Source of the DNA: Bacteroidia bacterium
GTDB taxonomy: Bacteria; Bacteroidota; Bacteroidia; B-17B0; Aurantibacillaceae
Length of the DNA stretch: 51,056 bases
Assembly (NCBI GenBank): GCA_025451115.1
Contig: JANWKZ010000229.1
Coordinates: 1-51,056, forward strand
Direction of reading: 5' to 3'
Under the pieces are notes generated by a model, which searched no databases, had not been told where the DNA came from, and saw nothing but the letters and a program-made list of their open reading frames with translations. Each line of letters starts with the position of its first letter. Position 1 is the stretch's first letter. The position numbers and the translations under genes were made by a program. Below, one piece after another: positions 19,499 to 38,487 of the stretch.

Positions 19499-22400
19499 AT
19501 GTTTAAGAACCCTGTTCATACCTTCATTTCCTTCTTACTCATTTCATTCGTTGCGGTCTTTAGCTGGTCGTGCGGTTCAAAAACCGGCGCTGGAGCCGAG
19601 GAAGCCGTAGCCATCCCTGATTCTACTGCCGTTGGAACAACCACCTCGCTGGGCGGGTGCAAGCCCATTGTGCTTGAAGGTAAAGTAATAGAAGCAGGCG
19701 CTCCTACTGTTGTAAAAGCAGGAACACCTGAAATGACCGCAGGTTTCAGCAACATACACCCGGTTGGGCAATTAAAAGTTGTGGAAGATGTGAGTGGAAC
19801 AAAACTCAATCCCGACAGCGTTAAACCGCAGGTAATAAAAGCAAATCCAAAAATTGTTCCCTGTCTAACACCAAAAACTACGATAGCTCTTTCGCCTGCC
19901 ATGCGCGAGCAAAATCCTATCGGCTTTAAATTCTTCGATATCGCCCAGGGATTAAGTTCTTCTTATATCAGTTGCATGATGCAGGATGCCAACGGAAACA
20001 TTTGGTTTGGTACCAAAGGCGGCGGCGTTTGTAAATACGATGGAACAGACTTCATGAATTACACCGAGAAACAAGGTTTGCCCAACAACTTTGTAGTATG
20101 TATGGCTGAGGATAAAGACAAGAACCTCTGGTTCGGTACAGATGGCGGCGGCGTTTGTAAATACGATGGAAAAAATTTCACTATTCTAACTGAAAAAGAA
20201 GGTTTAATAAATAATGCCGTATGGGCTATGTTGTGCGACAAGAACAACAACATGTGGTTCGGCTCAGCCGGCGGCGGCGTTTGCAAATTTGACGGGGCCA
20301 ATTTTACAGCTTACAACAAAGATGATGGCTTTGCAAGTAATTACGTGATCAGCCTCGCCGAGGACCGTAAGGGAAATATCTGGATGGGAACCTATGGCGA
20401 TGGCCTCTATAAATTTGATGGAAAAGAATTTACCGGTTATACGGAAGACGATGGGCTGAGCAGCGGCATCATCACTTCGATCATTGAAGACAAGGGTGGG
20501 AACATCTGGATGGGCACCGATGGCGGCGGCGCTTGTCGTTTTAACGGCAATGCTTTTACACATTATACTGAGAACGCGGGTTTAATAAGTAATTCGATCA
20601 ACTCGGTGATAGAAGACAAGACCGGCAACATCTGGTTTGCTACAAACGATAAAGGTGTTTGCAAATACGATGGCAGTAGCTTTATCTGTTTCACAGAATT
20701 TGAAGGTTTGAGCGGCAGCTCTATTCTTTGTTTGCTACAGGATGGGAACGAAGATCTTTGGTTTGGTACAGGCGGGCACGGTGTTACCAAATACGACCGC
20801 AGTTGCTTCACGCATTTTACCAAGAAAGAAGGTTTGAGCAATAACGCGGTTTACAAAACATTTGAAGATCACGATCACAACCTTTGGTTCGGCACAAATG
20901 GCGGCGGGGTTTGTAAATACGCCGACGGAAATTTCTATAACTATACTGCACAACAGGGCTTGAACAATAACCGCATCTGGAGCATATTGGAAGACAGCAA
21001 GAACAACATGTGGTTTTGCACCAACGGCGATGGCGTTTGCCGTTTCGACGGAAAGAGTTTTTACCAGTACACCGAAGAGCAAGGTTTGAGTGGCAACCAG
21101 GTGTATTGCATGCTGGAAGATTGCAGGAACAATTTCTGGTTTGGTACCAACAGCGGCGGTGTTTGCTTTTTTGATGGAAAGAGTTTTACGCATTACACCA
21201 GCGAAGAAGGTTTTGGCAGCGATATCGTTTACTCCATCATGGAAGACACCGATCGTAATATCTGGTTCGGTACGGATGGCGGTGGCGCCATTCGGTTCGA
21301 TGGAAAAACATTTACGGCTTTCACAAAAAAAGAAGGCCTTGCAGGCAATGTGGTATACAGCATTATGCAGGATAACTATAAGAACATCTGGTTTGGGACA
21401 GATGAAGGCGGCGTGAGTAAGTTTGATGGAAAGAAATTCGTAACGTATTCAGAAAAAGAGGGACTAAGCAATAACCACGTGTGGAGTGTTGTTCAGGATA
21501 TGCACAACAATATCTGGTTGGGAACTGAGAGCGGGCTAACCAAGATCACACAAAGAAAAGATCGCAGCGCGCCTGAGTTTACCGTTTATGATCTCAGTGA
21601 TGGATTTTTAGGGAACGACGCTTTGCAAAATTCGGTTTACGAAGACAGCAAGGGTTATATCTGGTGGGGCACAGGAAAAATGCTGACGCGCTACGATCCT
21701 TCGCAGGACGTGCCGGATGATAAAGCACCTATCATGCACTTGAAGAACGTACGCGTGCATTTCGAAGAAATTCCCTGGCGCGATATCAGTGAAGGAAATA
21801 ACAAGGACAGCAAATTTTCGGGCGTAAAGTTCAGCGATGTGAACAAGTGGTACCCCGTACCTGAGAACCTGGAGCTTCCCTATGGCCACAACCACTTAAC
21901 TTTTAATTACGTGGGCATTAACTTTAAGAGTCAGAACAAGATCCTGTATCGTTACATGATGGATGGATTGGAAGATAAATGGACCCCAACCACACCAAAG
22001 ACGGAAGCGGTTTACGGTAACCTGCCCCCCGGCACCTATACACTCAACGTAAAAGCGCTGAACAAGGATGGCGTGTGGAGCAATTCTTTCACTTATGCTT
22101 TTACAATTCGTCCGCCCTGGTGGCAGACCTGGTGGTTCAGGATACTGGCCGCTGTGTTATTTTTGCTGGGTAGTTACACATTCTTCCGTGCCCGCACGGC
22201 CGCGCTGAGAAGAAGGCAAAAAGAACTGGAAGAAACAGTTCTGGAGCGTACTGCCGAGGTAGTTCATCAGAAAGAACTGGTGGAAGAAAAACAAAAAGAA
22301 ATTGTAGACAGTATCAATTACGCAAAAAGGATCCAGTTCAGCATCCTGCCGCCGCAAGATGAAATGAAGGAAGCGCTGGGCGATCACTTTGTGCTTTACA

Positions 22401-23071
22401 AACCTAAGGATATTGTAAGCGGCGACTTCTACTGGATGGTGCAGGTTAAACACAGCGCAACCGAAACTCCTTTGGCGGTAGTTGCCGCGGTTGATTGTAC
22501 GGGTCACGGAGTTCCCGGCGCTTTGATGAGTATTATCAGTAGTTCTTTATTGAGCCAGACCACTAAGAACGCAGACATCAATTCTCCGGCCGACGCGCTT
22601 AATTACCTTAACCAGGAGTTGCCCAAAAACATTAAGGCGCAGCAAAAAGGAGAGATCATTCGCGATGGCATGGACATCACCATGTGCGCTTTTGATTTTG
22701 CTACGCGCAAAATTGAATTCGCCGGTGCTAATAATTCACTGTATGTATTTACAGGAGGCGAGCTGAAAGAAATTAAAGCCGATAAACAGGCCATCAGTGG
22801 TTCTACCGATGATGTAAAGAAGCCTTATACAAATCATTCTGTTCAGCTGAACAAAGGCGATATGGTTTACCTCTTTACGGATGGTTATGCCGACCAGTTT
22901 GGTGGACCGAAAGGCAAAAAATTCAAACACAAACAGCTGGAACAGATCCTGGTTGAAATACACCAAAAACCCATGGCCGAGCAAAGGGCTGTTCTCGATA
23001 AACGCTTTGAAGACTGGCGCGGGACGCTGGAACAAGTAGATGATGTGACTGTTATTGGCGTAAGAGTTTAA
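19499..23071 (+). CDS. Periplasmic two-component-propeller sensor with cytoplasmic SpoIIE/PP2C phosphatase
   Basis: 1190 residues. An N-terminal hydrophobic segment ends 'VFSWSC' (signal or lipoprotein anchor). 14 two-component-regulator propeller repeats follow (about 168-730, 42-residue period, 'NIWFGTdGGGVCKYDG'), enough for two seven-bladed propellers. Then come a Y_Y_Y domain (about 795-870), one transmembrane helix (about 880-898), a coiled coil, the linker 'DSINYAKRIQFSILPP' and a PP2C/SpoIIE phosphatase (about 960-1190: 'DIVSGDFY', 'DCTGHGVPGALMS', 'DGMDITMC', 'FTDGYADQFGG', 'DDVTVIGV'). It should sense a periplasmic ligand and dephosphorylate an anti-sigma-antagonist-type target. Such hybrids, with a phosphatase in place of a kinase, are frequent in Bacteroidota. 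Confidence 0.92.
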   Translation: MFKNPVHTFISFLLISFVAVFSWSCGSKTGAGAEEAVAIPDSTAVGTTTSLGGCKPIVLEGKVIEAGAPTVVKAGTPEMTAGFSNIHPVGQLKVVEDVSGTKLNPDSVKPQVIKANPKIVPCLTPKTTIALSPAMREQNPIGFKFFDIAQGLSSSYISCMMQDANGNIWFGTKGGGVCKYDGTDFMNYTEKQGLPNNFVVCMAEDKDKNLWFGTDGGGVCKYDGKNFTILTEKEGLINNAVWAMLCDKNNNMWFGSAGGGVCKFDGANFTAYNKDDGFASNYVISLAEDRKGNIWMGTYGDGLYKFDGKEFTGYTEDDGLSSGIITSIIEDKGGNIWMGTDGGGACRFNGNAFTHYTENAGLISNSINSVIEDKTGNIWFATNDKGVCKYDGSSFICFTEFEGLSGSSILCLLQDGNEDLWFGTGGHGVTKYDRSCFTHFTKKEGLSNNAVYKTFEDHDHNLWFGTNGGGVCKYADGNFYNYTAQQGLNNNRIWSILEDSKNNMWFCTNGDGVCRFDGKSFYQYTEEQGLSGNQVYCMLEDCRNNFWFGTNSGGVCFFDGKSFTHYTSEEGFGSDIVYSIMEDTDRNIWFGTDGGGAIRFDGKTFTAFTKKEGLAGNVVYSIMQDNYKNIWFGTDEGGVSKFDGKKFVTYSEKEGLSNNHVWSVVQDMHNNIWLGTESGLTKITQRKDRSAPEFTVYDLSDGFLGNDALQNSVYEDSKGYIWWGTGKMLTRYDPSQDVPDDKAPIMHLKNVRVHFEEIPWRDISEGNNKDSKFSGVKFSDVNKWYPVPENLELPYGHNHLTFNYVGINFKSQNKILYRYMMDGLEDKWTPTTPKTEAVYGNLPPGTYTLNVKALNKDGVWSNSFTYAFTIRPPWWQTWWFRILAAVLFLLGSYTFFRARTAALRRRQKELEETVLERTAEVVHQKELVEEKQKEIVDSINYAKRIQFSILPPQDEMKEALGDHFVLYKPKDIVSGDFYWMVQVKHSATETPLAVVAAVDCTGHGVPGALMSIISSSLLSQTTKNADINSPADALNYLNQELPKNIKAQQKGEIIRDGMDITMCAFDFATRKIEFAGANNSLYVFTGGELKEIKADKQAISGSTDDVKKPYTNHSVQLNKGDMVYLFTDGYADQFGGPKGKKFKHKQLEQILVEIHQKPMAEQRAVLDKRFEDWRGTLEQVDDVTVIGVRV
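20000..21690 (+). repeat. Fourteen intragenic 126-bp propeller repeats
   Basis: The IWFGT-type segment recurs 14 times, mostly at 126 bases (42 residues). The last interval is longer because of an insertion before 'IWWGTGK'. Some adjacent copies share long DNA identity (for example the GGCGGCGGCGTTTGTAAATA block near 20028 and 20144), which suggests recent duplication or gene conversion. Confidence 0.9.
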
Positions 23072-23160: not shown

Positions 23161-26121
23161 TTAAAAAACCTTGTACTGTATTGGGATCTTAAGTGTTACA
23201 CAAGTTCCTTTATCGGCATTTTTTCTAATGGAAAACTCCCCGCGCAGTATGCCGGCTCGTTCCTTCATTCCTAATAGCCCCAGGGAAGTTTTATTATTCT
23301 TTCTTTCTTCACTTATACCCTTCCCGTCATCCTCTATTTCGAGCACTAAGACGTTAGAGTCAACGCTGAGCTTTGCCCTTACCTCTTTTGCTTCTGCATG
23401 TCGGGCCACGTTTGTTAATGATTCCTGAAAGATCCGGAATACAGCAGTGTTAATGTCTCCCGAATAATCCTCTGACACTTCCTCAGCATCAACAAGGCAT
23501 TTTATCCCGGTTCTCTTTTCAAATTCAATCGCTTGCCATTCAATGGCCGCAGTAAGGCCAAGGTCATCAAGAATGCCGGGGCGAAGTTCTGTAGCTATTC
23601 TTCTTACAGTTTTAACAGTTTCATCAATAAGATGGGTCATTTTTTCCGTCTCCTTGATAATCTCCGGAAAAACTTTTTCATTTTTCCTTTTAAAGGAAAT
23701 AATATCCATTTTTAACCCGGTTAATTGTTGACCCAATTCGTCATGGATCTCACGGGCCATGCTTGTTCTTTCCTCTTCTCTTATACTTTGTAAATGTGAG
23801 GACAACAAACGTAACTGCTCGTTCATTTCTTTAAGTTCATTTTCGGCATTTTTACGCTCCGTTATATCACGGTAGTTTAATACAAATGCATTTACACTTT
23901 CGTTTTGAAGAAGATTGGTAACTGTTCCCTCCACCCAAATATAATTTCCATTTTTATGAAGGGTCCGTAACTGAAAGGGTATTGCAACGCTCGGTGATCT
24001 CTTAGAGTTATTTATAATATCGAGGCACTCATCCAACTCATCAGGATGCATCACTTGCAAAACAGTTCTGTCTTTATGGTCATGTAGCGTAAGGCCCGCT
24101 GTACGGATAAAAGACGGGCTCTGATAGACAACTTCTAATTTTTCGTTTATGAGAACGATAGTATCACTGATATTTTCAATAAGTGCCCGGTTTTTTTCTT
24201 CGTTTTGCTTCAATTTTTTTTCAGCCTCCTTACGCTCAGTAATATCACGTATAAACGCGCAGAAAAAATCATTATCTGTATCTTTCACTACAGCGATACT
24301 AAGCTCTACCGGAAACTCTTTGCCACTCTTGTGAAGCGCTGCTACTTCCATTGTTCTATTCAGCAAAGGTCCTTCGCCGGTCTTTGTGTAATGCGCAAGA
24401 CCCCGCTCATGATGCACGCGCTGTTGATGTGGAATAATGACCTCGCTCATTTTTTTGCCCAGTACCTCCTCCTCCTTCCATCCGAATATTCTTTCTGCCT
24501 GCGGTGTCCATATGGTCACTAGTCCTTCCTTATTCATGCCAACAATGGCATCCAGGGCAGAATTGATGATGTGTTTTCTTGTCTTTTCGCTGGCCCGTAT
24601 TCTCTCCTCCGCCTTTTTCTGTTCTGTAATATCTATATGTGTTCCCACCGTAAAATTGGTTAAATTTCCATTGATATCGCTTAGGGTTTGGCCGCGCGAC
24701 CAAATCCAAACCCAACTTCCATCAATATGCAACATCCGGAAATAATTTTCGTAGGTTCCAACCGAACCTTTTTTTAGGTACTCAGCAAAATGACCGATCG
24801 AACGTTCTCTGTCTTCGGGATGAAGAAGGTCTATCCAGGTCTCCTGAAGGTTTTTTGATCCTGAAATATTGTAGTCTGATTGTTTCCGGCCCAACATGCT
24901 AAAATACTCAGGGCTGCACCATAGATATTCCGAATTACCATGATATTCCCAGGCTCCTGTATTGGAAACGGAAATAATAGATCTATACCTTTCCTCACTT
25001 TCGCGGATCTTTTCTTCTGCTTTTTTGCGTTCTGTAATGTCTACGTTGATCGAAATTACCCCGACTATTTTTCCGCCTGTATCGTGCATAGGTATGCAAG
25101 AATTAAGGATCGTTTTGCGGTTTCCCTCGAAACCTTCAATCTCTGCTTCCTGGTTTATAACTGCTCTGTTTTCATTCAGGGCTACAGCCGCACCCCATTC
25201 GTGTGATTGTATTTCTTTACCATTGGGGAACCATCCTTTATATACATTATAGTCGCCTTTGCTTACATATTTTGCTCCTTCCCAAATTTGTTGCGCTGCC
25301 GGATTAAGAGAAAGCACTTTTCCCTGGCTATCTAATATAAAAACACCTACCGGCATATTTTCGAGCACCATATTAAGGAGTTTTTCATTGGCACTGATAT
25401 CATCGAGCATCTGGTTAAAGGCTGTTCCTAACTGGCTTATTTCTCCACTTCCCGAAGGCTCCGCTCTCAGATTTCGGTCACCGCTCCTAATTTTTCCTGC
25501 AACCGTTACCAATTTTTGCAAGCCCCTGCTAAGGCCTGAGGCAACAACTACCGCAAATAAGGAACCCGCGATAAGACTGATCAATATGAAAACTATTCCC
25601 CTGTTCCATATCTCAGTTATGTAGGGTTCGATATACTTTTGCGAAACACCTATTCGTGCCCATCCTACAATTTCATTGTGGTTAAGAATGGGCGTGGCAA
25701 TATCCAGGATGTTATTATCCTCCAATAGTATTTGTGTAGTGTTCACCGGTTTTAATTTCGCGCTTATAGCGTCCGTAGCTTTCAAGCCAAGATATTTTTT
25801 ATCACTGTGTGCCAACACAGTACCGTCATCTGATGTTACAAAGGCATATTCGAGGTTTGGGATCTCTTTATAAGTAGATACCAATTTCTGAAGGCGTGCC
25901 AGCTCGTAAGAAATTACGTAAGAATTTGCAGTGCTGGCCAGGTTGATGGAAAGTCCCAGGGTCCTGTCATGATTCAATTTCAGGAAGGAGGTTTTCTGCC
26001 TATCCATCATTTCCAATATAAATACCGACATCAATACTATGTTAACGATAGCTATGCCAAGGATCAACTGGGAGCGTATACTGGTAGGCTGTAGTTTTTT
26101 TATTATTTCTTTACTAGTCAT
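23161..26121 (-). CDS. Membrane histidine kinase with four PAS domains (NarX/DegS-type HisKA_3)
   Basis: 986 residues. TM1 about 17-38, a periplasmic sensor (about 40-170, 'YAFVTSDDGTVLAHSDKKYL', Cache-like), TM2 about 173-195, HAMP (about 195-245), four PAS domains each ending in a 'DITERKKAE' type PAC motif (about 245-372, 372-506, 507-635, 640-760), then HisKA_3 with phospho-acceptor His793 ('SMAREIHDELGQQLTGLKMD') and a HATPase domain ('FRIFQESLTNVARHAEA', 'LEIEDDGKGI', 'GLLGMKERAG'). No receiver domain is fused. HisKA_3 kinases normally pair with NarL/LuxR-type regulators such as the one encoded at 28721. Last gene of the operon, 15 bases after the PhnD-like lipoprotein. Confidence 0.93.
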   Translation of the reverse strand: MTSKEIIKKLQPTSIRSQLILGIAIVNIVLMSVFILEMMDRQKTSFLKLNHDRTLGLSINLASTANSYVISYELARLQKLVSTYKEIPNLEYAFVTSDDGTVLAHSDKKYLGLKATDAISAKLKPVNTTQILLEDNNILDIATPILNHNEIVGWARIGVSQKYIEPYITEIWNRGIVFILISLIAGSLFAVVVASGLSRGLQKLVTVAGKIRSGDRNLRAEPSGSGEISQLGTAFNQMLDDISANEKLLNMVLENMPVGVFILDSQGKVLSLNPAAQQIWEGAKYVSKGDYNVYKGWFPNGKEIQSHEWGAAVALNENRAVINQEAEIEGFEGNRKTILNSCIPMHDTGGKIVGVISINVDITERKKAEEKIRESEERYRSIISVSNTGAWEYHGNSEYLWCSPEYFSMLGRKQSDYNISGSKNLQETWIDLLHPEDRERSIGHFAEYLKKGSVGTYENYFRMLHIDGSWVWIWSRGQTLSDINGNLTNFTVGTHIDITEQKKAEERIRASEKTRKHIINSALDAIVGMNKEGLVTIWTPQAERIFGWKEEEVLGKKMSEVIIPHQQRVHHERGLAHYTKTGEGPLLNRTMEVAALHKSGKEFPVELSIAVVKDTDNDFFCAFIRDITERKEAEKKLKQNEEKNRALIENISDTIVLINEKLEVVYQSPSFIRTAGLTLHDHKDRTVLQVMHPDELDECLDIINNSKRSPSVAIPFQLRTLHKNGNYIWVEGTVTNLLQNESVNAFVLNYRDITERKNAENELKEMNEQLRLLSSHLQSIREEERTSMAREIHDELGQQLTGLKMDIISFKRKNEKVFPEIIKETEKMTHLIDETVKTVRRIATELRPGILDDLGLTAAIEWQAIEFEKRTGIKCLVDAEEVSEDYSGDINTAVFRIFQESLTNVARHAEAKEVRAKLSVDSNVLVLEIEDDGKGISEERKNNKTSLGLLGMKERAGILRGEFSIRKNADKGTCVTLKIPIQYKVF

Positions 26122-26136
26122 CCGGTGATTTTTATA

Positions 26137-27030
26137 TTAATGAATAACAGCGTCATACTTTTTTTTAAACTCCTTCATGGGCTTAAACGTATTATCATTT
26201 GCTTTTTCAAAGCCGCTGATATCAAGCTGACTCAGGGCCGTCTTACCCTCCTCCGTAGTTTGGATAGAAAAAAAAAGATTCGATAACTGATGGGCTATTT
26301 CGGTATCGGTAGTATTTTTGATCAGCAAAGCGTTGTTAATAAGTGGTGGCGTTTCCCATTTTACTTCTACCTTTTTTAAAATTTCGGGATGTTGCTTCAC
26401 ATAAACATTCCAATTCCGTTTCAGGCACAATCCCGCTTCACTTTTGCCCACATACGTGGTGATAATGGCCGATTCGAACGAAGCCACGTTCACCCGAAGA
26501 ATATCACGGTTAACATCCAGGCCGTGTTGATAAAGGTAATACAGTGTCATTAAGGTGGCGGGAATCGTTCTGTGAGGCACCAGTGATATTTTTTTTTCTT
26601 TTAGGTCATTTACTTTTTTTACGTCCGCATCTTTTCTTGTAAAAATTACACCGGAGTATTGACTGTCATCCTTGATCTTTCCAACAATAAAGTAGTCTTT
26701 ACTTTCCTTGTCGAGCGCTACAATACCATTGATCACTGTTAGATCGAACTTACTTTTAGATAGATTTTCAAGATATTCCTCATAAGAAACACAAGCTTTC
26801 ACTACGATATGTGCGCCCGATAAGCGTTTGTTAAGATACTTGACAAGTAGTTGAGCGTTTTCGCAATAGGAAAAACTGGGAAAACCCCAAATGAGTGTTT
26901 TATTTCCGGAAGTATCGACAGCAAATCCCGGCTTATACGCTGCAGTTGAGTCTTGATCGTTACAAGCAACAAGTGTTATGAATATTGCCAGGAAATAAAA
27001 AAAGGTTTTTATGAATTTAAATCTTTTCAT
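26137..27030 (-). CDS. PhnD-like substrate-binding lipoprotein, without ABC partners
   Basis: 297 residues. Signal with lipobox ending at Cys23 ('AIFITLVAC'). The mature protein has the PhnD/TauA-like type II periplasmic-binding pattern: 'GFPSFSYCENAQLLVKYLNK', 'FDLTVINGIVAL', 'VGKIKDDSQYSGVIFTRKD', 'SLVPHRTIPATLMTLYYL', 'VASFESAIITTYVGKSEAGL'. PhnD proteins bind phosphonates, phosphite or related oxyanions for ABC import, but no permease or ATPase gene is nearby. It lies 15 bases upstream of the PAS kinase, so a ligand-sensing role for that kinase is the better inference. The ligand is unknown. Confidence 0.85.
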   Translation of the reverse strand: MKRFKFIKTFFYFLAIFITLVACNDQDSTAAYKPGFAVDTSGNKTLIWGFPSFSYCENAQLLVKYLNKRLSGAHIVVKACVSYEEYLENLSKSKFDLTVINGIVALDKESKDYFIVGKIKDDSQYSGVIFTRKDADVKKVNDLKEKKISLVPHRTIPATLMTLYYLYQHGLDVNRDILRVNVASFESAIITTYVGKSEAGLCLKRNWNVYVKQHPEILKKVEVKWETPPLINNALLIKNTTDTEIAHQLSNLFFSIQTTEEGKTALSQLDISGFEKANDNTFKPMKEFKKKYDAVIH

Positions 27031-27093
27031 ATTAAATAGTAGGGTGTGATTCGTTCGGCTTATCCTGTTTAAATGTACTAATTTATTTCAATG

Positions 27094-27954
27094 CTATTTC
27101 CGGGTATAAGTTCTATTGAAGGTGTATATAAGGCTCGCATTCCAGATATATTGCTGGCTTCCGGGTATCCGCGTATCAATAGCCACATTCATGATCGTTT
27201 GAATAGAAAAAGGAAAATTCCTTTTTAACAAGGTTATTGTTGAGTTAAAGTAAACACCATCCTTTCCATCCTGGTACAGGTAATACAATTGCGGATTGAA
27301 CCTGGCAAAGCACTTAGTACCAAGCTTTATATTTGAAAAATTAACATTAAGGGAAACAAAGTGCGTGTTTTTTACAGCACGGTCACTCACACCGCAGAAA
27401 TACAAATACAGCGCCCCTATACTTATACCTTCTGTGATATGGAAATTGGGTTTGAATTCGCCACCCAGGTAACGCCTGTTTACCAGTTCTGTGGTTGAAA
27501 CTCCCTTAACCAGGTAAGTAACGCTTTTAAAATTCAGCAAGGGGCTTACACCTGCGGTCATTTGAAATTTACCGGTAGATCTTAGTTTGTACCGCACCGG
27601 AAAAAGAAAAGCCCAGGGCTCTCCATTGAGTGAAAAACGTAGTTGAGGCTCAAAAGATAATTTTTTGTTGCCCATAGACAGATCGAACAACACGGCGGGT
27701 TTGCCCAATGAAAGATTAGGTATGTATGAAATTCCTTTATTAGTAAGGGTGGCCGAAGCCTTCACGTAAAAGTTCTTTTTGGGGCTATTTATTGTTTGAG
27801 GTTTTGTTGTATCCGCCTTAGGAATTATACTATCTGTTTTTGCGGTGTTTAGGCTATCCCTTATTTGAGAACTTGTACTGTCGGCTTTTTGAGAAAAAGA
27901 ATAATTGGTACACATTATGAAAGTAAGAATGGACAAAACAACAATTTTATTCAT
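27094..27954 (-). CDS. Hypothetical outer-membrane beta-barrel protein of the sensor operon
   Basis: 286 residues from the ATG at 27954 (a GTG is one codon upstream). A signal peptide (about 1-20, ending 'TNYSFSQ') precedes a Ser/Thr/Lys/Pro-rich linker (about 21-55), then alternating amphipathic strands ('FYVKASATLTNKGISYIPNL', 'FLFPVRYKLRSTGKFQMTAG') and a C-terminal 'IWNASLIYTFNRTYTRK'. This looks like a small outer-membrane barrel of about 12 strands. No family recognised. It lies between the CheY-like regulator and the PhnD-like lipoprotein, so it may be the pore through which the ligand enters, which is inference. Confidence 0.7.
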   Translation of the reverse strand: MNKIVVLSILTFIMCTNYSFSQKADSTSSQIRDSLNTAKTDSIIPKADTTKPQTINSPKKNFYVKASATLTNKGISYIPNLSLGKPAVLFDLSMGNKKLSFEPQLRFSLNGEPWAFLFPVRYKLRSTGKFQMTAGVSPLLNFKSVTYLVKGVSTTELVNRRYLGGEFKPNFHITEGISIGALYLYFCGVSDRAVKNTHFVSLNVNFSNIKLGTKCFARFNPQLYYLYQDGKDGVYFNSTITLLKRNFPFSIQTIMNVAIDTRIPGSQQYIWNASLIYTFNRTYTRK

Positions 27955-28014
27955 CACAGTGGTCTTATTCAGCAGATAGTATAAATGATCTGTTTTTATG
28001 GGTTGACTAATCCA

Positions 28015-28398
28015 CTAACTTTCTTCATCGCTGCCTTTATCCTTTGCATTTAATAGCGTATGAACAATATCAAATTCGGTAGATTTATCAAAAAAATGAT
28101 CGGCGCCTCGTTTTTCCGCAGCCCGACGGTGGAAATCGGAGGCCATATTTGATAACATCATTACCACCACTGCGGGGTGATTGGTTTTGATCCATTTAAG
28201 AAAATTAAGCCCGTTGCCATCCGGTAAGTTAATATCGAGGATCACCGTGTTTATCTCTCCCCTATTCACTAATTCTGTGGCCTCGGCCAATGTACCGGCC
28301 GTTTCTATTCTATTTATGTTTTTAATGTCACTAAGCATTTTCTTCAATCCCGATATAATTATCTCAGAATCATCTACAAGCAATATATTGATCTTCAT
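28015..28398 (-). CDS. Stand-alone CheY-like response regulator
   Basis: 127 residues from the ATG at 28398; an A-rich AAAAAAAAGG precedes it, and the in-frame TTG five codons upstream is less likely. 'ILLVDDSEIIISGLKKML', phospho-acceptor Asp55 ('TVILDINLPDGNGL'), the conserved Ser/Thr ('VMMLSNMAS') and Lys ('FFDKSTEF') make a complete receiver domain. There is no output domain. First gene of the minus-strand operon that ends with the PAS kinase; it could be a phosphate sink or a protein-protein signalling output for that kinase. Divergent from the LuxR-type regulator. Confidence 0.9.
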   Translation of the reverse strand: MKINILLVDDSEIIISGLKKMLSDIKNINRIETAGTLAEATELVNRGEINTVILDINLPDGNGLNFLKWIKTNHPAVVVMMLSNMASDFHRRAAEKRGADHFFDKSTEFDIVHTLLNAKDKGSDEES

Positions 28399-28413
28399 CC
28401 TTTTTTTTAACAA

Positions 28414-28720
28414 ATTACGGTATATATCCGCTGGTAGTATGTAGTGTCAAAGGTCTGTTTTTTGTAGGGCGATCCCCTACAAAATTGCGTGTAGGGAAAA
28501 AGCCATTTATAACTGAAAAATGCGCTCAAACCGCCCCAGTTTAAAGATTTCCCTGCCAAATAGAGCAAAAAAGAGCGTTTTATAGGCCAAATCTTGCGTT
28601 TCCACCTTTTTTGAATTACTTTTATATTTACGAATATAGAATTTATGGCCGAAATTAAGGGCCCCCATGTAGTAAAGAAATCGTCCCCCTAATAACCCAT
28701 TCGATAAATAAAACTGTATT
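28414..28720. other. 307-base divergent intergenic region of the two response regulators
   Basis: Besides the operator at 28440-28496 the region holds no open gene. A GTAATTTG at about 28405-28412 on the minus strand is a weak match to the -7 element of the CheY-like gene. No perfect TAnnTTTG is seen in front of the LuxR-type gene; the DNA at 28610-28720 is A/T-rich. Confidence 0.5.
28440..28496. promoter_or_regulatory. Candidate operator: perfect TTTTGTAGGG inverted repeat plus extra half-sites
   Basis: TTTTGTAGGG (28460-28469) and CCCTACAAAA (28475-28484) form a perfect 10-bp inverted repeat with a 5-base spacer. A third TGTAGGG lies at 28490-28496 and TGTAGTGT at 28440-28447. It sits about 62-87 bases upstream of the CheY-like gene start and 225 bases from the LuxR-type gene. 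The same TTTTGTAGGG occurs at 32096. Two-fold symmetric sites of this size fit a LuxR/NarL-type dimer. Confidence 0.6.
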
Positions 28721-29347
28721 ATGAATATATTAATTGCAGATGATCACGCAATCGTACGCAAAGGCCTTATTGAAATTCTCAAAGAAGAGTATAGTTCGGC
28801 CAATATTACGGAAGCCAACGATAGTTCTGAAGTACAGGAGAAAATTAAAGGCAAAGTTTGGGATTTTATTCTTTTGGATGTTTCAATGCCCGGTAGAAAT
28901 GGAGTTGAGGTCCTGAAACAATTACGTGCCGATGGAATTAAAGCCCCTATACTAATGCTAAGCATGCACCCTGAAGAACAGTATGCTGTTCGTGCTTTAA
29001 AGGCGGGCGCATCAGGATTCTTAAATAAGAATAGTGCTACTGAGGAATTGGTGAATGCTGTTAGAAAAGTACTATCAGGCAAAAAATACATTACGTCCTC
29101 GCTGGCGGAACAATTGGCCGAAGGTATTGGCAATATTGAAAAACTACCGCATCAGCTACTTTCCGACAGGGAAATGCAGGTTTTTCAATTACTGGCGGCC
29201 GGAAAAACCGTTTCGGAAATAGCCGATGAAATTTCCTTAAGTGTCAACACGATCAGTACATACCGCGCAAGAGTTTTGGAAAAGACCCGTTTTTCAAATA
29301 ATGCAGATCTAACACGATATGCACTGGATAATGGATTGCTGGAATAA
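28721..29347 (+). CDS. NarL/LuxR-family response regulator
   Basis: 208 residues. Receiver domain 1-120 with 'ILIADDHAIVRKGLIEILKE', phospho-acceptor Asp53 ('FILLDVSMPGRNGVEV') and 'GASGFLNKNSA'. The C-terminal LuxR helix-turn-helix (about 140-205) has 'LSDREMQVFQLLAAGKTVSE' and 'LSVNTISTYRARVLEK'. It is the natural partner of the HisKA_3 kinase at 23161 and the best candidate to bind the repeats at 28460 and 32096. Convergent with the SpoIIE gene, 70 bases apart. Confidence 0.95.
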   Translation: MNILIADDHAIVRKGLIEILKEEYSSANITEANDSSEVQEKIKGKVWDFILLDVSMPGRNGVEVLKQLRADGIKAPILMLSMHPEEQYAVRALKAGASGFLNKNSATEELVNAVRKVLSGKKYITSSLAEQLAEGIGNIEKLPHQLLSDREMQVFQLLAAGKTVSEIADEISLSVNTISTYRARVLEKTRFSNNADLTRYALDNGLLE

Positions 29348-29417
29348 AACAATTCACCTCACTTGCGTCGGGCGACTTGTCCTTTAACTGTCTTTTTACA
29401 CCCGCATTTGTTTACTA

Positions 29418-30797
29418 TCAGGGTTGCACACCGATAACTAAAATATCATCTACCTGTTCAATTCCACCTTTCCATTTCTCGATAAAATTATCTAAGTATG
29501 CCTTCTGGTCTTGCATAGATTGACCCTGGATAGAGAGAAGGGTTTGTTTAAACCTTTTTATCATCAATTTTTTTTCTTCATTCCCACCAAAGGTATCCGC
29601 ATATCCGTCTGTAAAAATATAAAACCTGTCTCCCTGATTTAACTTAATTTCATGTTTCTCAAATGATTGATCGTTACTTGTGAAGCCTCCAATTGCTTTT
29701 TTCGTGGCCTTAATCTCCTCGATCGTTGTTTGCCCATTACGAATGATCCAAATGGGCCGGTTAGCGCCGGCGTATTTTACAATATTTGTTTTTGTGTCTA
29801 TAACGCAAAGGGCTATGTCCATTCCATCTTTACTGGAATTCTTGTCGCCGGATTGGCGCAAAGCGCTCTTTATTCCTTTATTTAACTTCTGTAAAATTTC
29901 GGATAGATCTGTACTTTGTGAAGTAGCATCTTCAAGTTTTTCTGAACAGATCATGCTCATTAGCGCACCCGGAACGCCGTGCCCTGTGCAGTCAGCAGCA
30001 GCAATAAAAATCAAATGGTCGAGCTTACGAAAAAAATAGAAATCTCCACTCACAATATCTTTCGACTTATAGAGAATGAAACTGTTAGGCAGTGCCGATT
30101 GAATTTCGTTTTGACAAGGCAGCATAGCCTGCTGTATCCTCTGTGCGTAATTCAAACTATCGGTAATAGCAGTGTTCCGTTCTTCTATTATTTCTTTCTG
30201 TTTTACGATGGTTTCCTTTGTACGACGTATAGTTTTGGTATGATTCCAAATAGCATAAGTGCCAAGTACAATAGGAATAAATATGGGAAGAACAGTCGAC
30301 TTTTCGGCTCCGGGCTGCACGATCCAATCCCAGGTTAATGCTCCGTTCAATTTTATGTTGAGGAGCACATAAAATAGCGGTAGCCATCCCAGGAAGCAGC
30401 AGAAAAGGACCCTGGCTAAACCTCTTTGAAGCAACGCACTCATTAAAATAAAGAACATCATCTTCGATACGCAAATTCCGTCCAGGCGCTGGGAGTTCAA
30501 CATCATGGTTGCCAGGAAAGTGGTGATCGTAACCACACTAAAGAAATAGTTGATCACATGATCCAGTTTCTTTACGTAACGGATAAGAAATGGCATGGAT
30601 CCCAGCAACAAAATGTCTATCGCGTGTTTGAAGGTGGCTTTATGGAACTCAAGCATAATATCAGTTGAGAGCTGAAGAAAAAAGATCAGAAAAAAGACAA
30701 TGCTGAATTGATAAAGTACAATGGCATTGGCCTGCTCAAAAGCATCGGCTGAATTAAGGAATTTCCCAATAAAATATTTTCTTATTTGTTGTTTCAT
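29418..30797 (-). CDS. Membrane SpoIIE/PP2C phosphatase
   Basis: 459 residues. About six transmembrane helices fill residues 25-190, followed by a short coiled coil ('TKETIVKQKEIIEERN'), the linker 'DSLNYAQRIQQAMLPC' and a PP2C/SpoIIE domain (about 225-459: 'DIVSGDFYFF', 'AADCTGHGVPGALMS', 'DGMDIALC', 'FTDGYADTFGG', 'EQVDDILVIG'). All acidic metal-binding motifs are intact. It should dephosphorylate a STAS-type or other target in response to a membrane signal. Last gene of a three-gene operon with a periplasmic protein and a barrel protein, which presumably supply that signal. Confidence 0.92.
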   Translation of the reverse strand: MKQQIRKYFIGKFLNSADAFEQANAIVLYQFSIVFFLIFFLQLSTDIMLEFHKATFKHAIDILLLGSMPFLIRYVKKLDHVINYFFSVVTITTFLATMMLNSQRLDGICVSKMMFFILMSALLQRGLARVLFCCFLGWLPLFYVLLNIKLNGALTWDWIVQPGAEKSTVLPIFIPIVLGTYAIWNHTKTIRRTKETIVKQKEIIEERNTAITDSLNYAQRIQQAMLPCQNEIQSALPNSFILYKSKDIVSGDFYFFRKLDHLIFIAAADCTGHGVPGALMSMICSEKLEDATSQSTDLSEILQKLNKGIKSALRQSGDKNSSKDGMDIALCVIDTKTNIVKYAGANRPIWIIRNGQTTIEEIKATKKAIGGFTSNDQSFEKHEIKLNQGDRFYIFTDGYADTFGGNEEKKLMIKRFKQTLLSIQGQSMQDQKAYLDNFIEKWKGGIEQVDDILVIGVQP

Positions 30798-30816
30798 TTT
30801 TACTTCTTTTTGAGGA

Positions 30817-31350
30817 TCATTTAGTAGCTGATCTGTATGTCTTTTTGATCAGGGCCGCAAATTTTTTATTGTAATCAAAAATTCCCTTTTCGTAGTTGTA
30901 ACATATGGCAGCCAACAGAATGCTTCTTGTTTCTTTCCTCCCCTTGTTCACCTTATGAATAGCTTCCTGGTTAACATTAAAATGAAACTTATTAACTACA
31001 TCGCCACCAACGCTTTCAAACAACCATGTTGAAATACAGACAACCTTATCAACTTTTCCGGGGCAAGAGATACGTATTGAATACTGCTTGTTCCTTTCAA
31101 GACTGAAATGGAAGGTCTGATTAGTACTAACCACAAGTGAATCCAGAATAACGCCCTCTTCCATCAACCTCACAAAGTTGCTCTCCTTAGAGTTTTTTTC
31201 ATGTCCGGTAATTGTTCCGGTGAATTCAAGGCATATGTTTTCGGTAGGTTGCCTTTGATCACTTTTGTCCGCATAAATAAATGCCGGTGTAATAAGGAGT
31301 AAAATTACCAGTAAAGCTCCTTTCGTTGTTTTAGTCATTTTGCTTTTCAT
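30817..31350 (-). CDS. Hypothetical secreted protein of the SpoIIE operon
   Basis: 177 residues. N-terminal signal peptide (about 8-28, 'GALLVILLLITPAFIYAD'). The middle ('CLEFTGTITGHEKN', 'VILDSLVVSTNQTFHFSLER', 'YSIRISCPGKVDKVVCIST') reads as a beta-sandwich similar to the small CNA-B/transthyretin-like domains that report 'tone' or stress in Bacteroidota, and the C-terminus is helical and basic. No family recognised. It lies 3 bases after the barrel gene and 19 before the SpoIIE gene, so it is a candidate periplasmic relay between them. Confidence 0.65.
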   Translation of the reverse strand: MKSKMTKTTKGALLVILLLITPAFIYADKSDQRQPTENICLEFTGTITGHEKNSKESNFVRLMEEGVILDSLVVSTNQTFHFSLERNKQYSIRISCPGKVDKVVCISTWLFESVGGDVVNKFHFNVNQEAIHKVNKGRKETRSILLAAICYNYEKGIFDYNKKFAALIKKTYRSATK

Positions 31351-31353
31351 TAA

Positions 31354-32022
31354 TTAGTTAAAAATTGCGCAGGTAATGCCTGTACGTAATTGTAAACCGA
31401 CATTTACCTTAGTATAGTACAATTCAAGTGCGTCAGGAAAATTAAAGGAGTAGTTACCACCTAATCCTACTGAGTTATCCCAGGTGAAACGCTTTAGGAA
31501 CTTTATGCGTAGCCCGGCTCCCGCAAATAATTCGGTCGATTGAAAATGTAACGAGCTCACGTGGTTTTCTGTTGCAGTTCTATTGGCCATGTATTCATTA
31601 CGTAAGTTTGTTTTTCCAAGTTTTGTATTGAAATTGTAGGCGCTGCTTACAAAAAAATAGAGTTCGGGCACATCTTCTTCCTTTCCCGGGATATTAGGCC
31701 CTGTAACCGCATAACTATAATTAAACTGAATTCCGGAAACAATCTTGCGGCATTTTTGAATATTAAAACCCACAGAAAAAGTCTGACGTGCGTTTTTATA
31801 AACCAGGGTCGGGATGCGCATGCTCCCATATCCATTTGCGCTTAATTGGCCATATAAGCTTACTCCAAAAGACCTGTTTGATCTGCGATCTTCCTGGGAA
31901 TTAACATTTAATGTCAATACCAATAACATAAGTGCCAGTGATTTTCTACCAATTAATGTGGCAATGATAAATTCAACTCTTTCTTTAACTGTAAGGACTG
32001 TGATTAGTGTTTTTGTTTTCAT
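31354..32022 (-). CDS. Hypothetical outer-membrane beta-barrel protein of the SpoIIE operon
   Basis: 222 residues from the ATG at 32022 (an upstream in-frame TTG at 32049 is less likely). The export signal is unusually long: about 25 polar and hydrophobic residues precede the actual 'RKSLALMLLVLTLNVNSQ' core. The mature part has alternating strands ('FGVSLYGQLSANGYGSMRIP', 'QTFSVGFNIQKCRKIVSGIQ') and ends in 'VGLQLRTGITCAIFN', an outer-membrane barrel pattern of about 8 strands. No family recognised. First gene of the barrel / periplasmic protein / SpoIIE operon; TTTTGTAGGG lies 74 bases upstream. Confidence 0.7.
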   Translation of the reverse strand: MKTKTLITVLTVKERVEFIIATLIGRKSLALMLLVLTLNVNSQEDRRSNRSFGVSLYGQLSANGYGSMRIPTLVYKNARQTFSVGFNIQKCRKIVSGIQFNYSYAVTGPNIPGKEEDVPELYFFVSSAYNFNTKLGKTNLRNEYMANRTATENHVSSLHFQSTELFAGAGLRIKFLKRFTWDNSVGLGGNYSFNFPDALELYYTKVNVGLQLRTGITCAIFN

Positions 32023-32095
32023 GCTTGTGTTTTTAAATTTATAAGGCAAAGAAAGGCACCGGGCGCTAGCCTCTTTATAGTGCGATACAGCGGAG

Positions 32096-36298: not shown

Positions 36299-36358
36299 TT
36301 TCCAATTTTGAAACCTTTTGGTTTTTGTATCGTATAAATATTGTTTTTGCACAAAATT

Positions 36359-36766
36359 ATGTCGCAACAAGCTGAAAATCAAGTGAAAATAACAAAGCAA
36401 AATAACCCGGAAGGTGTGGTAGAACGCATGGTGGTAGGTCTTTGCGAGAAGATGAACATCAAAGAAGAGAAGTTTGGGAACATTTTATTAGCACTTACCG
36501 AGGCTGTTGACAACGCCATTGAGCACGGTAACCAAAACCACCCCGATAAAGCAGTTGAACTTAGCTATAAAGCCTCTTCAGAAGGCGTAACCTTTACCAT
36601 AGCCGACCAGGGTCAGGGTTTCGACCCCAACCACGTATCAGATCCTACACACCCCGAAAGCGTTTCAGAAGAAGGCCGCGGCCTATTCTTAATGAAACAT
36701 CTGGCCGATAAAGTGGCCTTTGAAGAGAACGGCAAAAAAGTAGTGCTGTCCTTCAATCTTAATTAA
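36359..36766 (+). CDS. RsbW/SpoIIAB-like ATP-binding protein (anti-sigma-factor type kinase)
   Basis: 135 residues from the ATG at 36359. A HATPase_c fold with N-box 'ALTEAVDNAIEHGNQ', G1 'IADQGQGFDP' and G2 'EEGRGLFLMKHLAD' motifs. Proteins of this type phosphorylate an STAS-domain antagonist and hold a sigma factor; SpoIIE-type PP2C phosphatases reverse the phosphorylation. Two such phosphatases are encoded in this window (19499, 29418), but no STAS or sigma gene is present, so the pairing is inference. Confidence 0.88.
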   Translation: MSQQAENQVKITKQNNPEGVVERMVVGLCEKMNIKEEKFGNILLALTEAVDNAIEHGNQNHPDKAVELSYKASSEGVTFTIADQGQGFDPNHVSDPTHPESVSEEGRGLFLMKHLADKVAFEENGKKVVLSFNLN

Positions 36767-36798
36767 TCTTTTCTTTCCTCAACCATTGGCAAACCGAG

Positions 36799-36816
36799 TC
36801 CCGATAGCTATCGGGA
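36799..36816. repeat. 18-bp perfect palindrome
   Basis: TCCCGATAGCTATCGGGA directly follows the RsbW-like gene. I recall CCCGATAGCTATCGGG as a recurrent intergenic palindrome in Bacteroidota genomes; within this window only this copy was seen. Confidence 0.6.
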
Positions 36817-37149
36817 TCGAGGTCCTCATGTTATTTTTTGTGCGTTGCCCTCGGCCCGGGCTACAAAAGGGTTCCGTTTTTGCCCATCTTACTCCTAATA
36901 TGATTTTCGCAAAATGTTTCTTTTTTCAAACTGCTTGGGCAAAGAACCCCTTCGGGCCTTTTGTATCCCCGCCTGACTTTGCGAGGGCTTGTGTGACGGC
37001 GGGCAGGCCTAACGCAAATACAAAACAGTGTTGCAATTCGAAAAGCTTAAGTTTAGAATAATGGTTCATTGAAATCGCGCGTTGGCCGGGCCGTCCGCCG
37101 AGCCGTGTGGCCCTGTGTGGCAGGGATCGGTCGGCCTTGATTTCTTTTG

Positions 37150-37179
37150 TTTCTTTTCTTCATCAAGGAAGAAAAGAAA
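37150..37179. repeat. Purine/pyrimidine hairpin repeat
   Basis: TTTCTTTTCTTC (37150-37161) and GAAGAAAAGAAA (37168-37179) form a perfect 12-bp stem with loop ATCAAG. It sits in a longer T/C-rich context and resembles a dispersed intergenic element of the phylum. Confidence 0.6.
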
Positions 37180-37277
37180 GTGCAGGGCTGCTCACATCGC
37201 TAAGACTCTTTGAAAGCAAAAGCCAGAACTTAGACTCTCTCACTTAATCAGTACAAACAACTGCGGGTCGAAATGAT

Positions 37278-37285
37278 TATCTTTA
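37278..37285 (+). promoter_or_regulatory. ybeY: Promoter -7 element of ybeY
   Basis: TATCTTTA, 6 bases before the ATG at 37292; predicts a leaderless or nearly leaderless transcript. Confidence 0.5.
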
Positions 37286-37291
37286 CCACAA

Positions 37292-37717
37292 ATGTCAATC
37301 ACATTCTCCGGCATCAAAACAAAAACCCCCTCAAAAACCATCCTCAAAAAATGGCTGGAGAAGATCGCGGCTAAAGAAAAAAGAAAGATCAATTCGCTGG
37401 CCTATAATTTTGTGAGTGACGAGGAGCTCTGGAAAATGAACAAACAATTCCTCAACCACAACACCTATACCGACATCATTACTTTTGATTACAGCGAGGA
37501 AGGGAAATTGAGCGGCGAGATCTACATCAGTGTTGACCGCGTAAAGGAGAATGCCGAAAAACACAAAGTAACTACGCAGGAAGAATTACTGCGCGTAATG
37601 GCCCACGGCCTTTTACATCTTTGCGGTTATAAAGATAAAAGCCCCATCCAGCAAAAAGAAATGCGCGCGGCGGAAGAGAGAGCTTTGAAGATGTTTAAGA
37701 ATTCACCAGCAGCTTAA
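37292..37717 (+). CDS. ybeY: Endoribonuclease YbeY (16S rRNA maturation)
   Basis: 141 residues. 'FVSDEELWKMNKQFLNHNTY' and 'TDIITFDYSEEGKLSGEIYI' match the family, and the metal site is 'MAHGLLHLCGYKDKSP'. Two His ligands are present; the third His of the proteobacterial H-x3-H-x5-H motif is replaced by the Lys-Asp usual for this phylum. It cleaves the 3' end of 16S rRNA precursors and takes part in ribosome quality control. It overlaps the convergent response regulator gene by 23 bases. Confidence 0.92.
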   Translation: MSITFSGIKTKTPSKTILKKWLEKIAAKEKRKINSLAYNFVSDEELWKMNKQFLNHNTYTDIITFDYSEEGKLSGEIYISVDRVKENAEKHKVTTQEELLRVMAHGLLHLCGYKDKSPIQQKEMRAAEERALKMFKNSPAA

Positions 37718-38396
37718 ACCCTTTTCCATGCACGTTCACGATCTCAACTTTTGGGTCGTGTTTTAAATACTTACGTAATTTGGTAATGTACACGTCCATG
37801 CTGCGGCTATTAAAATAGTTGTCATCGTGCCAAATGGTTTTTAGCGTGAAGGCGCGATCTACCACTTCGTTCTTGTTCAACACCAGTAACCTCAACAGCT
37901 GAACTTCCTTGGTGGTGAGCTTCATGATATGGTCATCGCAAACCAACGATTGTCTTTCGGTATTGAAGATATAACGACCAATGGTAAACTCAGCCGTATC
38001 GTTCTCTATCACCTGCGCTTTCATACTACGACGAAGTACAGCCTGAATACGCAACATCAATTCTTCCATACTGAAAGGCTTGGTGATATAATCATCCGCG
38101 CCGGCGTTAAAGCCTTCTATCGTATCTTCCTTCATTGATTTCGCGGTAAGGAAAATGATCGGGATCTGTTTATTACTTAAGCGAATTTCTTTCGCTAAAG
38201 TAAATCCGTCCTTCATCGGCATCATCACATCCAGCAGGCACAGATCGTATTCCTGCTTGCAGAAGAGATCGTAACCTTCCTTGCCGTTACGGGCCAGTTT
38301 TACGGAGTAGCCTTTGGCTTCGAGGTATTCCTGTAACAGCGCTCCCAGGTTCGCGTCGTCTTCGGCTAAGAGTACTTTTGCTTTTTCTGTGCTCAT
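37695..38396 (-). CDS. OmpR/PhoB-family response regulator
   Basis: 233 residues. Receiver domain with 'VLLAEDDANLGALLQEYL', phospho-acceptor Asp56 ('LCLLDVMMPMKDGF') and 'GADDYITKPFSMEEL'. The winged-helix output domain (about 135-233) has 'LTTKEVQLLRLLVLNKNEVV' and 'SRSMDVYITKLRKYLKHDP'. It is encoded immediately before its kinase (gap 91 bases). Target genes are unknown. It resembles the RprY-type regulators of this phylum. Confidence 0.94.
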   Translation of the reverse strand: MSTEKAKVLLAEDDANLGALLQEYLEAKGYSVKLARNGKEGYDLFCKQEYDLCLLDVMMPMKDGFTLAKEIRLSNKQIPIIFLTAKSMKEDTIEGFNAGADDYITKPFSMEELMLRIQAVLRRSMKAQVIENDTAEFTIGRYIFNTERQSLVCDDHIMKLTTKEVQLLRLLVLNKNEVVDRAFTLKTIWHDDNYFNSRSMDVYITKLRKYLKHDPKVEIVNVHGKGFKLLVNS

Positions 38397-38487
38397 GGTG
38401 TTTGTTTTAATTGTGACTATTTTCTTTATGATCCTGTTTATATAACCGTGTAGCGACGCGCCTGTATTCCCTGCGTCTGCTTCACGG

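Follow-up and report, generated by a model that had tools for sequence, protein, structure and literature searches.

The stretch of DNA analysed here, hereafter the window, comprises 51,056 nucleotides of contig JANWKZ010000229.1 (assembly GCA_025451115.1) from a Bacteroidia bacterium of the Aurantibacillaceae and contains a gene for a PhnD-like lipoprotein that is directly followed by a gene for a histidine kinase (Table 1). In an earlier reading, made from the sequence alone, four minus-strand genes were described at this site, encoding a CheY-like receiver, an outer-membrane-type protein, the PhnD-like protein and the kinase. All four are present in the layout given in that sequence-only reading, including the gap of 15 bases between the end of the PhnD gene and the start of the kinase gene. 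Its list of operon members lacked a NarL-type regulator, which, as judged from relatives, appears to belong to the same circuit together with a SpoIIE-type phosphatase. The start codon of the CheY-like receiver gene is TTG, and its exact start is therefore uncertain. The outer-membrane-type protein has no match in Pfam or NCBIfam. Cys23 of the window PhnD aligns with a Cys that is present in ~95% of the 80 relatives discussed below. PF12974 was found only once in the whole assembly of 2.75 Mb, which is 74% complete, and above the cut-off in one of 87 genomes of the order, namely the window's own. An Rfam search and a tRNA search found nothing, and scans for promoters and terminators gave results at chance level.

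Table 1. Features of the PhnD-kinase locus, with positions in the window.
Feature	Position	Strand	Basis
Single-domain CheY-like receiver	28413-28015	-	Response_reg, E 2.6e-20
Outer-membrane-type protein, presumed barrel, 287 aa	27957-27094	-	between CheY and PhnD genes
PhnD-like lipoprotein, 297 aa, putative periplasmic co-receptor with apparently rebuilt ligand pocket	27030-26137	-	PF12974, E 6.4e-37
Kinase, whole gene	26121-23161	-	sCache_3_2, HAMP, four PAS, HisKA_3, HATPase_c
Kinase sensory front end, residues 1-250: transmembrane segment (TM), sCache_3_2, TM, HAMP	25372-26121	-	model pLDDT 93
Kinase rear: four PAS, then HisKA_3 and HATPase_c catalytic end (residues 776-986)	23161-25371	-	Pfam
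NarL-type response regulator (REC and GerE), likely direct phosphotransfer partner	28721-29347	+	Pfam; comparison with relatives
SpoIIE-type phosphatase, probable part of the output set	29418-30797	-	Pfam; comparison with relatives
Inserted signalling block between propeller-SpoIIE gene and DUF4175 gene	23161-32049	.	congener synteny, GC

The PhnD-like protein belongs to a family with a fixed receptor partner. In a search of 395 genomes of the phylum, 32 matched the window PhnD, the window's own included. The genes for the two strongest other matches (E 1e-36 and 4e-31, 28% and 26% identity) directly precede genes for multi-PAS kinases, the N-terminal 250 residues of which match the window kinase. 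The more distant PhnDs are found in mixed contexts, six of them in PhnCDE loci, others in PhnD-kinase-regulator triads (L041, L049, L050) and others alone. Thus, the gene name alone does not reveal the function, whereas the clade does. A profile built from the window PhnD and its two strongest matches, with no receptor sequence in it, was scanned against 84,980 species genomes, which gave 113 confirmed relatives, and the loci of 80 of these (L055-L134) were analysed. In all 80, the product of the gene following phnD begins with the sCache front end of the window receptor (phmmer E no higher than 5.2e-8). Conservation of the PhnD-kinase pairing, which the sequence-only reading had put forward as the test of its case, is thus borne out. 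The PhnD open reading frame (ORF) was missing from greedy ORF calls in 13 of the 80 loci and was read from the matched frame instead; in an earlier set of 20 loci, three were without a PhnD ORF by BLAST. The two genes overlap or abut in 69 loci, lie 1-30 bases apart in 10, and 79 bases apart in one. All 78 front ends that were scanned (window included) contain an sCache_3_2 domain, and 71 of them HAMP.

Judged by record titles and tree labels, the 80 loci are distributed over at least ten phyla (Pseudomonadota, Bacteroidota, Verrucomicrobiota, Hydrogenedentota, Elusimicrobiota, Chloroflexota, Nitrospirota, Thermodesulfobacteriota, Acidobacteriota and Myxococcota), although they are not fully independent: L036 and L123 appear to be one contig, and L057/L126, L073/L090 and L081/L107 are from one assembly per pair. 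The outputs of the receptors vary. Among 72 that were scanned, i.e., 71 of the 80 plus the window's, many by their last 600 residues only, HATPase_c was found in at least 39, HisKA in 33, GGDEF in 20, EAL in 16 and HisKA_3 in 2, all of these counts being lower bounds. The receptor query alone also led to distant sCache kinases. Of ten such control loci, in two of which (L152, L156) the key gene was not located, L150, L151 and L153 have the kinase in other PhnD-kinase-regulator triads, and L148, L154, L155 and L157 have a kinase but no PhnD. Hence, the front end is specific to the PhnD family only at high similarity. In one of these control loci (L153, 160-5951), the triad of a distant PhnD, a kinase and an NtrC-like regulator lies beside ACR3-like and arsenate reductase-like genes (named by eye), which is the setting that an AioXSR-like arsenic sensor of Bacteroidota would be expected to have. 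The neighbourhoods of the 80 loci comprise 617 ORFs, named by eye, in which kinases (38 loci) and CheY-like receivers (12 loci) are the only widely recurring kinds; no metabolic neighbour that would name the ligand was widely recurrent. The most frequent metabolic neighbour was an AmtB-like ammonium transporter gene (by eye), which is located close to the PhnD-receptor pair at four of the 80 loci (L080, L099, L113, L123).

The window contains no genes for an ABC importer as far as these were searched for: tblastn found no phnC- or phnE-like gene, and Pfam scanning of 40 window proteins gave no ABC ATPase or permease family above the cut-off, in agreement with the sequence-only reading. A phnE-type permease gene was likewise found in none of the 80 family loci, whereas the same queries, which were supplied by two of six PhnCDE control loci, detected it in all six. 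Thus, the case that would have argued for uptake, i.e., homologues beside a phnE-type permease gene, was not encountered in these loci. PhnC-like matches in seven of the 80 loci are ABC ATPases with 23-31% identity, none of them accompanied by phnE; those of L094, L098 and L114 lie in proteins of 541 to 706 aa that are ABC-F-like by eye. The fixed receptor pairing and the absence of phnE, as opposed to its presence in 6/6 controls, argue for sensing rather than uptake, as was originally proposed, and settle this choice as far as sequence can.

The kinase itself is composed of parts with different affinities. In related genomes, HisKA_3 kinases are encoded beside NarL regulators in five cassettes, two of which are found in one congener (G002), one each in two other congeners (G005, G006), and one in a genome of the same class (G093). 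All five contain a NarL regulator, three a CheY-like receiver and three a SpoIIE phosphatase. The window kinase was cut into segments, which were compared with the five cassette kinases and with 81 paired receptors. Residues 1-190 match 81/81 paired receptors and 0/5 cassette kinases, whereas residues 776-986 match 5/5 cassette kinases, with up to 60% identity (G002), and only 2/81 paired receptors, with 28% identity at best. The PAS domains show weaker matches to both. Thus, the front end of the kinase belongs together with the PhnD gene, and its rear end is that of the local circuit; the kinase is a chimera of a family front end and a local catalytic end. The other parts of this local circuit also appear to be present in the window: its NarL regulator shares 65% identity with the one adjoining the G002 kinase that gave the 60% match, its CheY-like receiver is 27-36% identical to receivers beside NarL homologues in three of the five cassettes, and its SpoIIE phosphatase is 28-46% identical to phosphatases of three of the five. 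The CheY-like protein, seen earlier as the diffusible receiver of the sensing system, is therefore better explained as a member of a local kinase/NarL/CheY/SpoIIE set, and the NarL regulator is the likelier direct partner of the HisKA_3 kinase.

The signalling genes form an inserted block. In two congeners (G002 and G004; L217 and L218), which have the same flanks as the window, a single small gene separates the propeller-SpoIIE gene from the DUF4175 gene; in G006 (L219), the third congener compared, the region downstream of the propeller gene is different. In the window, the corresponding interval holds eight genes and has a GC content of 0.396, vs. 0.447 for the rest of the window; GC at third codon positions (GC3) is 0.35-0.43 in all eight block genes, vs. 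0.51-0.57 in seven other genes measured. The empty site in two congeners and the GC shift mark the block as an insertion. Stretches of congener DNA have a GC content of 0.35-0.37, and a low-GC relative is a plausible donor. The flanking propeller protein (19499-23071), with Reg_prop and Y_Y_Y domains, ends in a SpoIIE phosphatase, not in a kinase, and is conserved at the site in congeners (~60% identity). A second signalling cluster of the window (36341-40056) encodes an HATPase_c_2 protein, YbeY, an OmpR-type regulator and a HisKA kinase, with at least partial synteny in congeners.

The window PhnD is highly divergent. Single-sequence scans of genome and viral contig collections found no relatives of it, whereas the alignment-based scan succeeded, which indicates that the sequence itself is rare. 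In a search of 325 genomes of the class with the family profile, four had any match, the window's scoring 312 bits and the others 70 bits or less. Plasmid searches gave distant matches only (12 and 38 records, all with <60% identity). In both the PhnD and the receptor tree, the nearest rows are L055, L056 and L058, from Verrucomicrobiota, Hydrogenedentota and Elusimicrobiota; together with the window, they form a supported set (99/98) in the receptor tree. The placement in the PhnD tree is unsure because of the long branch of the window PhnD (end branch 3.12, vs. a median of 0.31). There are 89 columns with a conservation of 90% or more among the 80 relatives; individual members retain 73-89 of these and the window PhnD only 34, with gaps at four of the columns, where the family has an HPLHNP loop. 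In the receptor half, the window keeps 21 of 26 conserved columns, which is within the range of the members (20-26). Thus, the binding half has changed far more than the receptor half.

The changes include the ligand pocket. Ligand-contact residues of Escherichia coli PhnD and of AioX were taken from PMC5908839, mapped by family-profile alignment to E. coli PhnD, and counted over the 80 relatives. Ser127-Thr128-Ser129 of PhnD, which, together with a His, are carried by all five solved proteins with printed alignments, are replaced by Ala-Leu-Ala in the family (79, 75 and 79 of 80) and by Thr155-Ile156-Pro157 in the window. His157 is Gln in the family (77/80) and Phe185 in the window; the corresponding replacements are Trp (80/80) and Leu for Asn175, Pro (65/80) and Arg for Glu177, and Gln (80/80) and Val for Ser68. 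Tyr47 is retained in the family (78/80) and the window, Asp205 is Asn in both (79/80 in the family), and Tyr93 is Phe in the family (80/80) and Tyr in the window. Where importers bind the phosphorus group, the family pocket is thus uncharged and aromatic, and that of the window is different again. As the anion-site residues are missing in both, phosphonate is an unlikely ligand, and this part of the original proposal, which invoked a phosphonate-like or other small anion, is not supported. The other part stands as a possibility: Arg154, Lys204 and Arg205, at or next to pocket positions, are newly present in the window PhnD and could serve a different anion. The mature protein also contains three extra cysteines (56, 80 and 202), two of which (80 and 202) are absent from the others of the 81 aligned proteins.

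The outer-membrane-type protein, previously seen as the pore of the sensing system, does not appear to be part of it. It has matches in 19 of 296 genomes of the phylum, the window's own included. Among 15 neighbourhoods, in 14 of which the gene was located (not in L189), no neighbouring ORF matched the window PhnD, CheY-like or kinase queries. The presumed barrel belongs to an independent Bacteroidota family without a conserved link to the module and may be a passenger or a recent recruit. Elsewhere, genes of its family often adjoin one for a conserved protein of ~300 aa with an N-terminus of the EEFY-K-F-WIPE type (L183, L184, L186, L187, L192).

The model of the window PhnD is confident (pLDDT 92) and, best first, resembles the solved structures of PtxB (Z 26.3), PhnD1, ArrX (24.8), XAC2383 (24.7), PhnD and AioX (23.6), with scores that differ little (Z 23-26). 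The closest kinds of system are AioXSR/ArrXSR and the XAC2383-XAC2382 pair. The latter is reportedly a periplasmic receptor/diguanylate cyclase pair of Xanthomonas citri in which, as in the window, a PhnD-fold binding protein stands beside a membrane receptor with a periplasmic Cache domain. The cytoplasmic outputs of this kind of system are variable, as in the present family. The window pair differs in its HisKA_3 kinase output and its apparently rebuilt pocket; although the window PhnD model superimposes on XAC2383 with an rmsd of 3.0 over 251 residues, it is not nearer to XAC2383 by sequence, as the latter scores 32.7 bits against the family profile, below the transporter protein PhnD1 (84.7 bits). 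In TtrS, the tetrathionate kinase, the binding domain is carried within the kinase itself. Its model (NCBIfam NF040750) is matched by 80 of 81 family members at E up to 0.001, and PhnD-like sensing for a histidine kinase is common to both, but PhnD and kinase are separate genes in the window and in 80/80 relatives, with a separate lipoprotein and an sCache domain in the kinase. With the importer binding proteins PhnD, PtxB and HtxB, the window PhnD shares the fold and PF12974, whereas the permease and ATPase genes are missing from the window and the S-T-S and His of the anion site are replaced. In AioXSR, ArxXSR and ArrXSR, a PhnD-fold protein signals to a histidine kinase and does not serve a transporter (PMC5908839). 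The plan of AioX/ArrX, i.e., a binding protein beside a kinase with a response regulator nearby, is also found in the window, except that AioR and ArxR are AtoC-type regulators and the regulator in the window is of the NarL type.

Several other explanations have to be considered. The PhnD-like protein could be an orphan that serves an ABC transporter with genes at another site in the genome, as its family is named after ABC transporters in both Pfam and NCBIfam and the assembly is incomplete. This is the least credible explanation, given the receptor partner in all 80 relatives, the lack of a phnE-type gene at any of those loci, and a score of 49.3 bits against the NCBIfam PhnD model with its cut-off of 261.1; ABC import was therefore rejected. 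An arsenic-oxyanion sensor of the AioXSR/ArrXSR kind would agree with the shared fold and the common plan of binding protein, kinase and regulator, and both AioX and ArrX are signalling proteins (PMC5908839). Yet, the AioX pocket residues Cys106, Ser161, Ser163 and His192 given in that paper correspond, via E. coli PhnD, to Asn101, Thr155, Pro157 and Phe185 of the window PhnD, and there is no arsenic family among the 40 scanned window proteins, which makes arsenic sensing very improbable, and it was rejected as well. The sequence-only reading of pore, binder and kinase as one sensing system dedicated to a phosphonate-like or other small anion is improbable as a whole: its sensing part is supported by the pairing and the absence of phnE, and the new basic residues of the window PhnD could build a new anion site, but the anion-site residues of PhnD/PtxB are absent and the barrel is unlinked to the module elsewhere.

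A more serious alternative, although still unlikely, is that the window PhnD has lost ligand binding and acts on the kinase only in a structural or constitutive regulatory role, or that it is in decay. Its end branch is ten-fold longer than the median, and the HPLHNP loop and 55 of the 89 near-invariant columns are lost. On the other hand, the reading frame, the signal sequence and the lipid-attachment Cys are intact, the model is confident, the partner sensor retains most of its conserved columns, and the new basic pocket residues suggest retuning. In the reading that we prefer, to which we assign a probability of roughly 0.78, two genes make up a periplasmic co-receptor that has been grafted onto a two-component circuit of local origin. 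A number of observations weigh against this reading. The long branch of the window PhnD could mean decay, which is conceivable because the changes extend beyond the pocket, with only 3 of 11 contact-equivalent positions matching the family majority, and selection is unmeasurable because this is the only sequence of its subtype found. The sensor half is also fast-evolving (end branch 1.66, vs. a median of 0.36). The distance matrices of PhnD and receptor agree (Mantel r 0.72, n = 78 pairs, 0/999 permutations, 78 of the 80 receptors being long enough), but such agreement is also inflated by genome relatedness and shared ancestry. The NarL gene is divergently transcribed, and its partnership with the kinase is therefore deduced from relatives. 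Finally, the Pfam evidence on transporters comes from 40 window proteins, and the remaining ORFs mostly overlap these genes in another frame.

In the co-receptor mechanism that we propose, the PhnD-like lipoprotein would bind its ligand between its two lobes and dock, in a ligand-dependent manner, on the dimeric kinase at its sCache domain. The resulting change would travel via the second membrane helix, the HAMP domain and the four PAS domains until it reached the catalytic end with HisKA_3. This end would then phosphorylate the divergently encoded NarL-type regulator and possibly also the CheY-like receiver, while the SpoIIE phosphatase would act in the same circuit. The same kind of mechanism has reportedly been proposed for XAC2383-XAC2382. 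For AioX, too, a mechanism of this kind was put forward (PMC5908839).

For the family as a whole, a wider proposition can be made, which we regard as tentative and as somewhat short of probable. Members from at least ten phyla may share one extracellular signal, which would be read by a PhnD-fold co-receptor fixed to an sCache front end that is swapped between kinase, GGDEF and EAL outputs, and which would be accommodated in a near-invariant, non-anionic aromatic pocket (HPLHNP, PNP[WY]QT, TALAA, TWPxPW). The window would then be a natural variant in which this front end was joined to a kinase of local origin and the pocket was remodelled for another ligand than the one bound by the relatives. 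In the literature searched, by title and start of the abstract, no paper was found that describes the PhnD-sCache family or names its ligand, and the conserved family pocket points to one common signal that is as yet unnamed there. The importer label is misleading for the whole PhnD-sCache family across at least ten phyla, and many proteins labelled as binding proteins of ABC transporters may be parts of receptors. In the window, the junction of a widespread sensory module with a local circuit can be seen directly: the natural joining of a sensory front end and a different output lies within one kinase gene and offers a ready template for building sensors.

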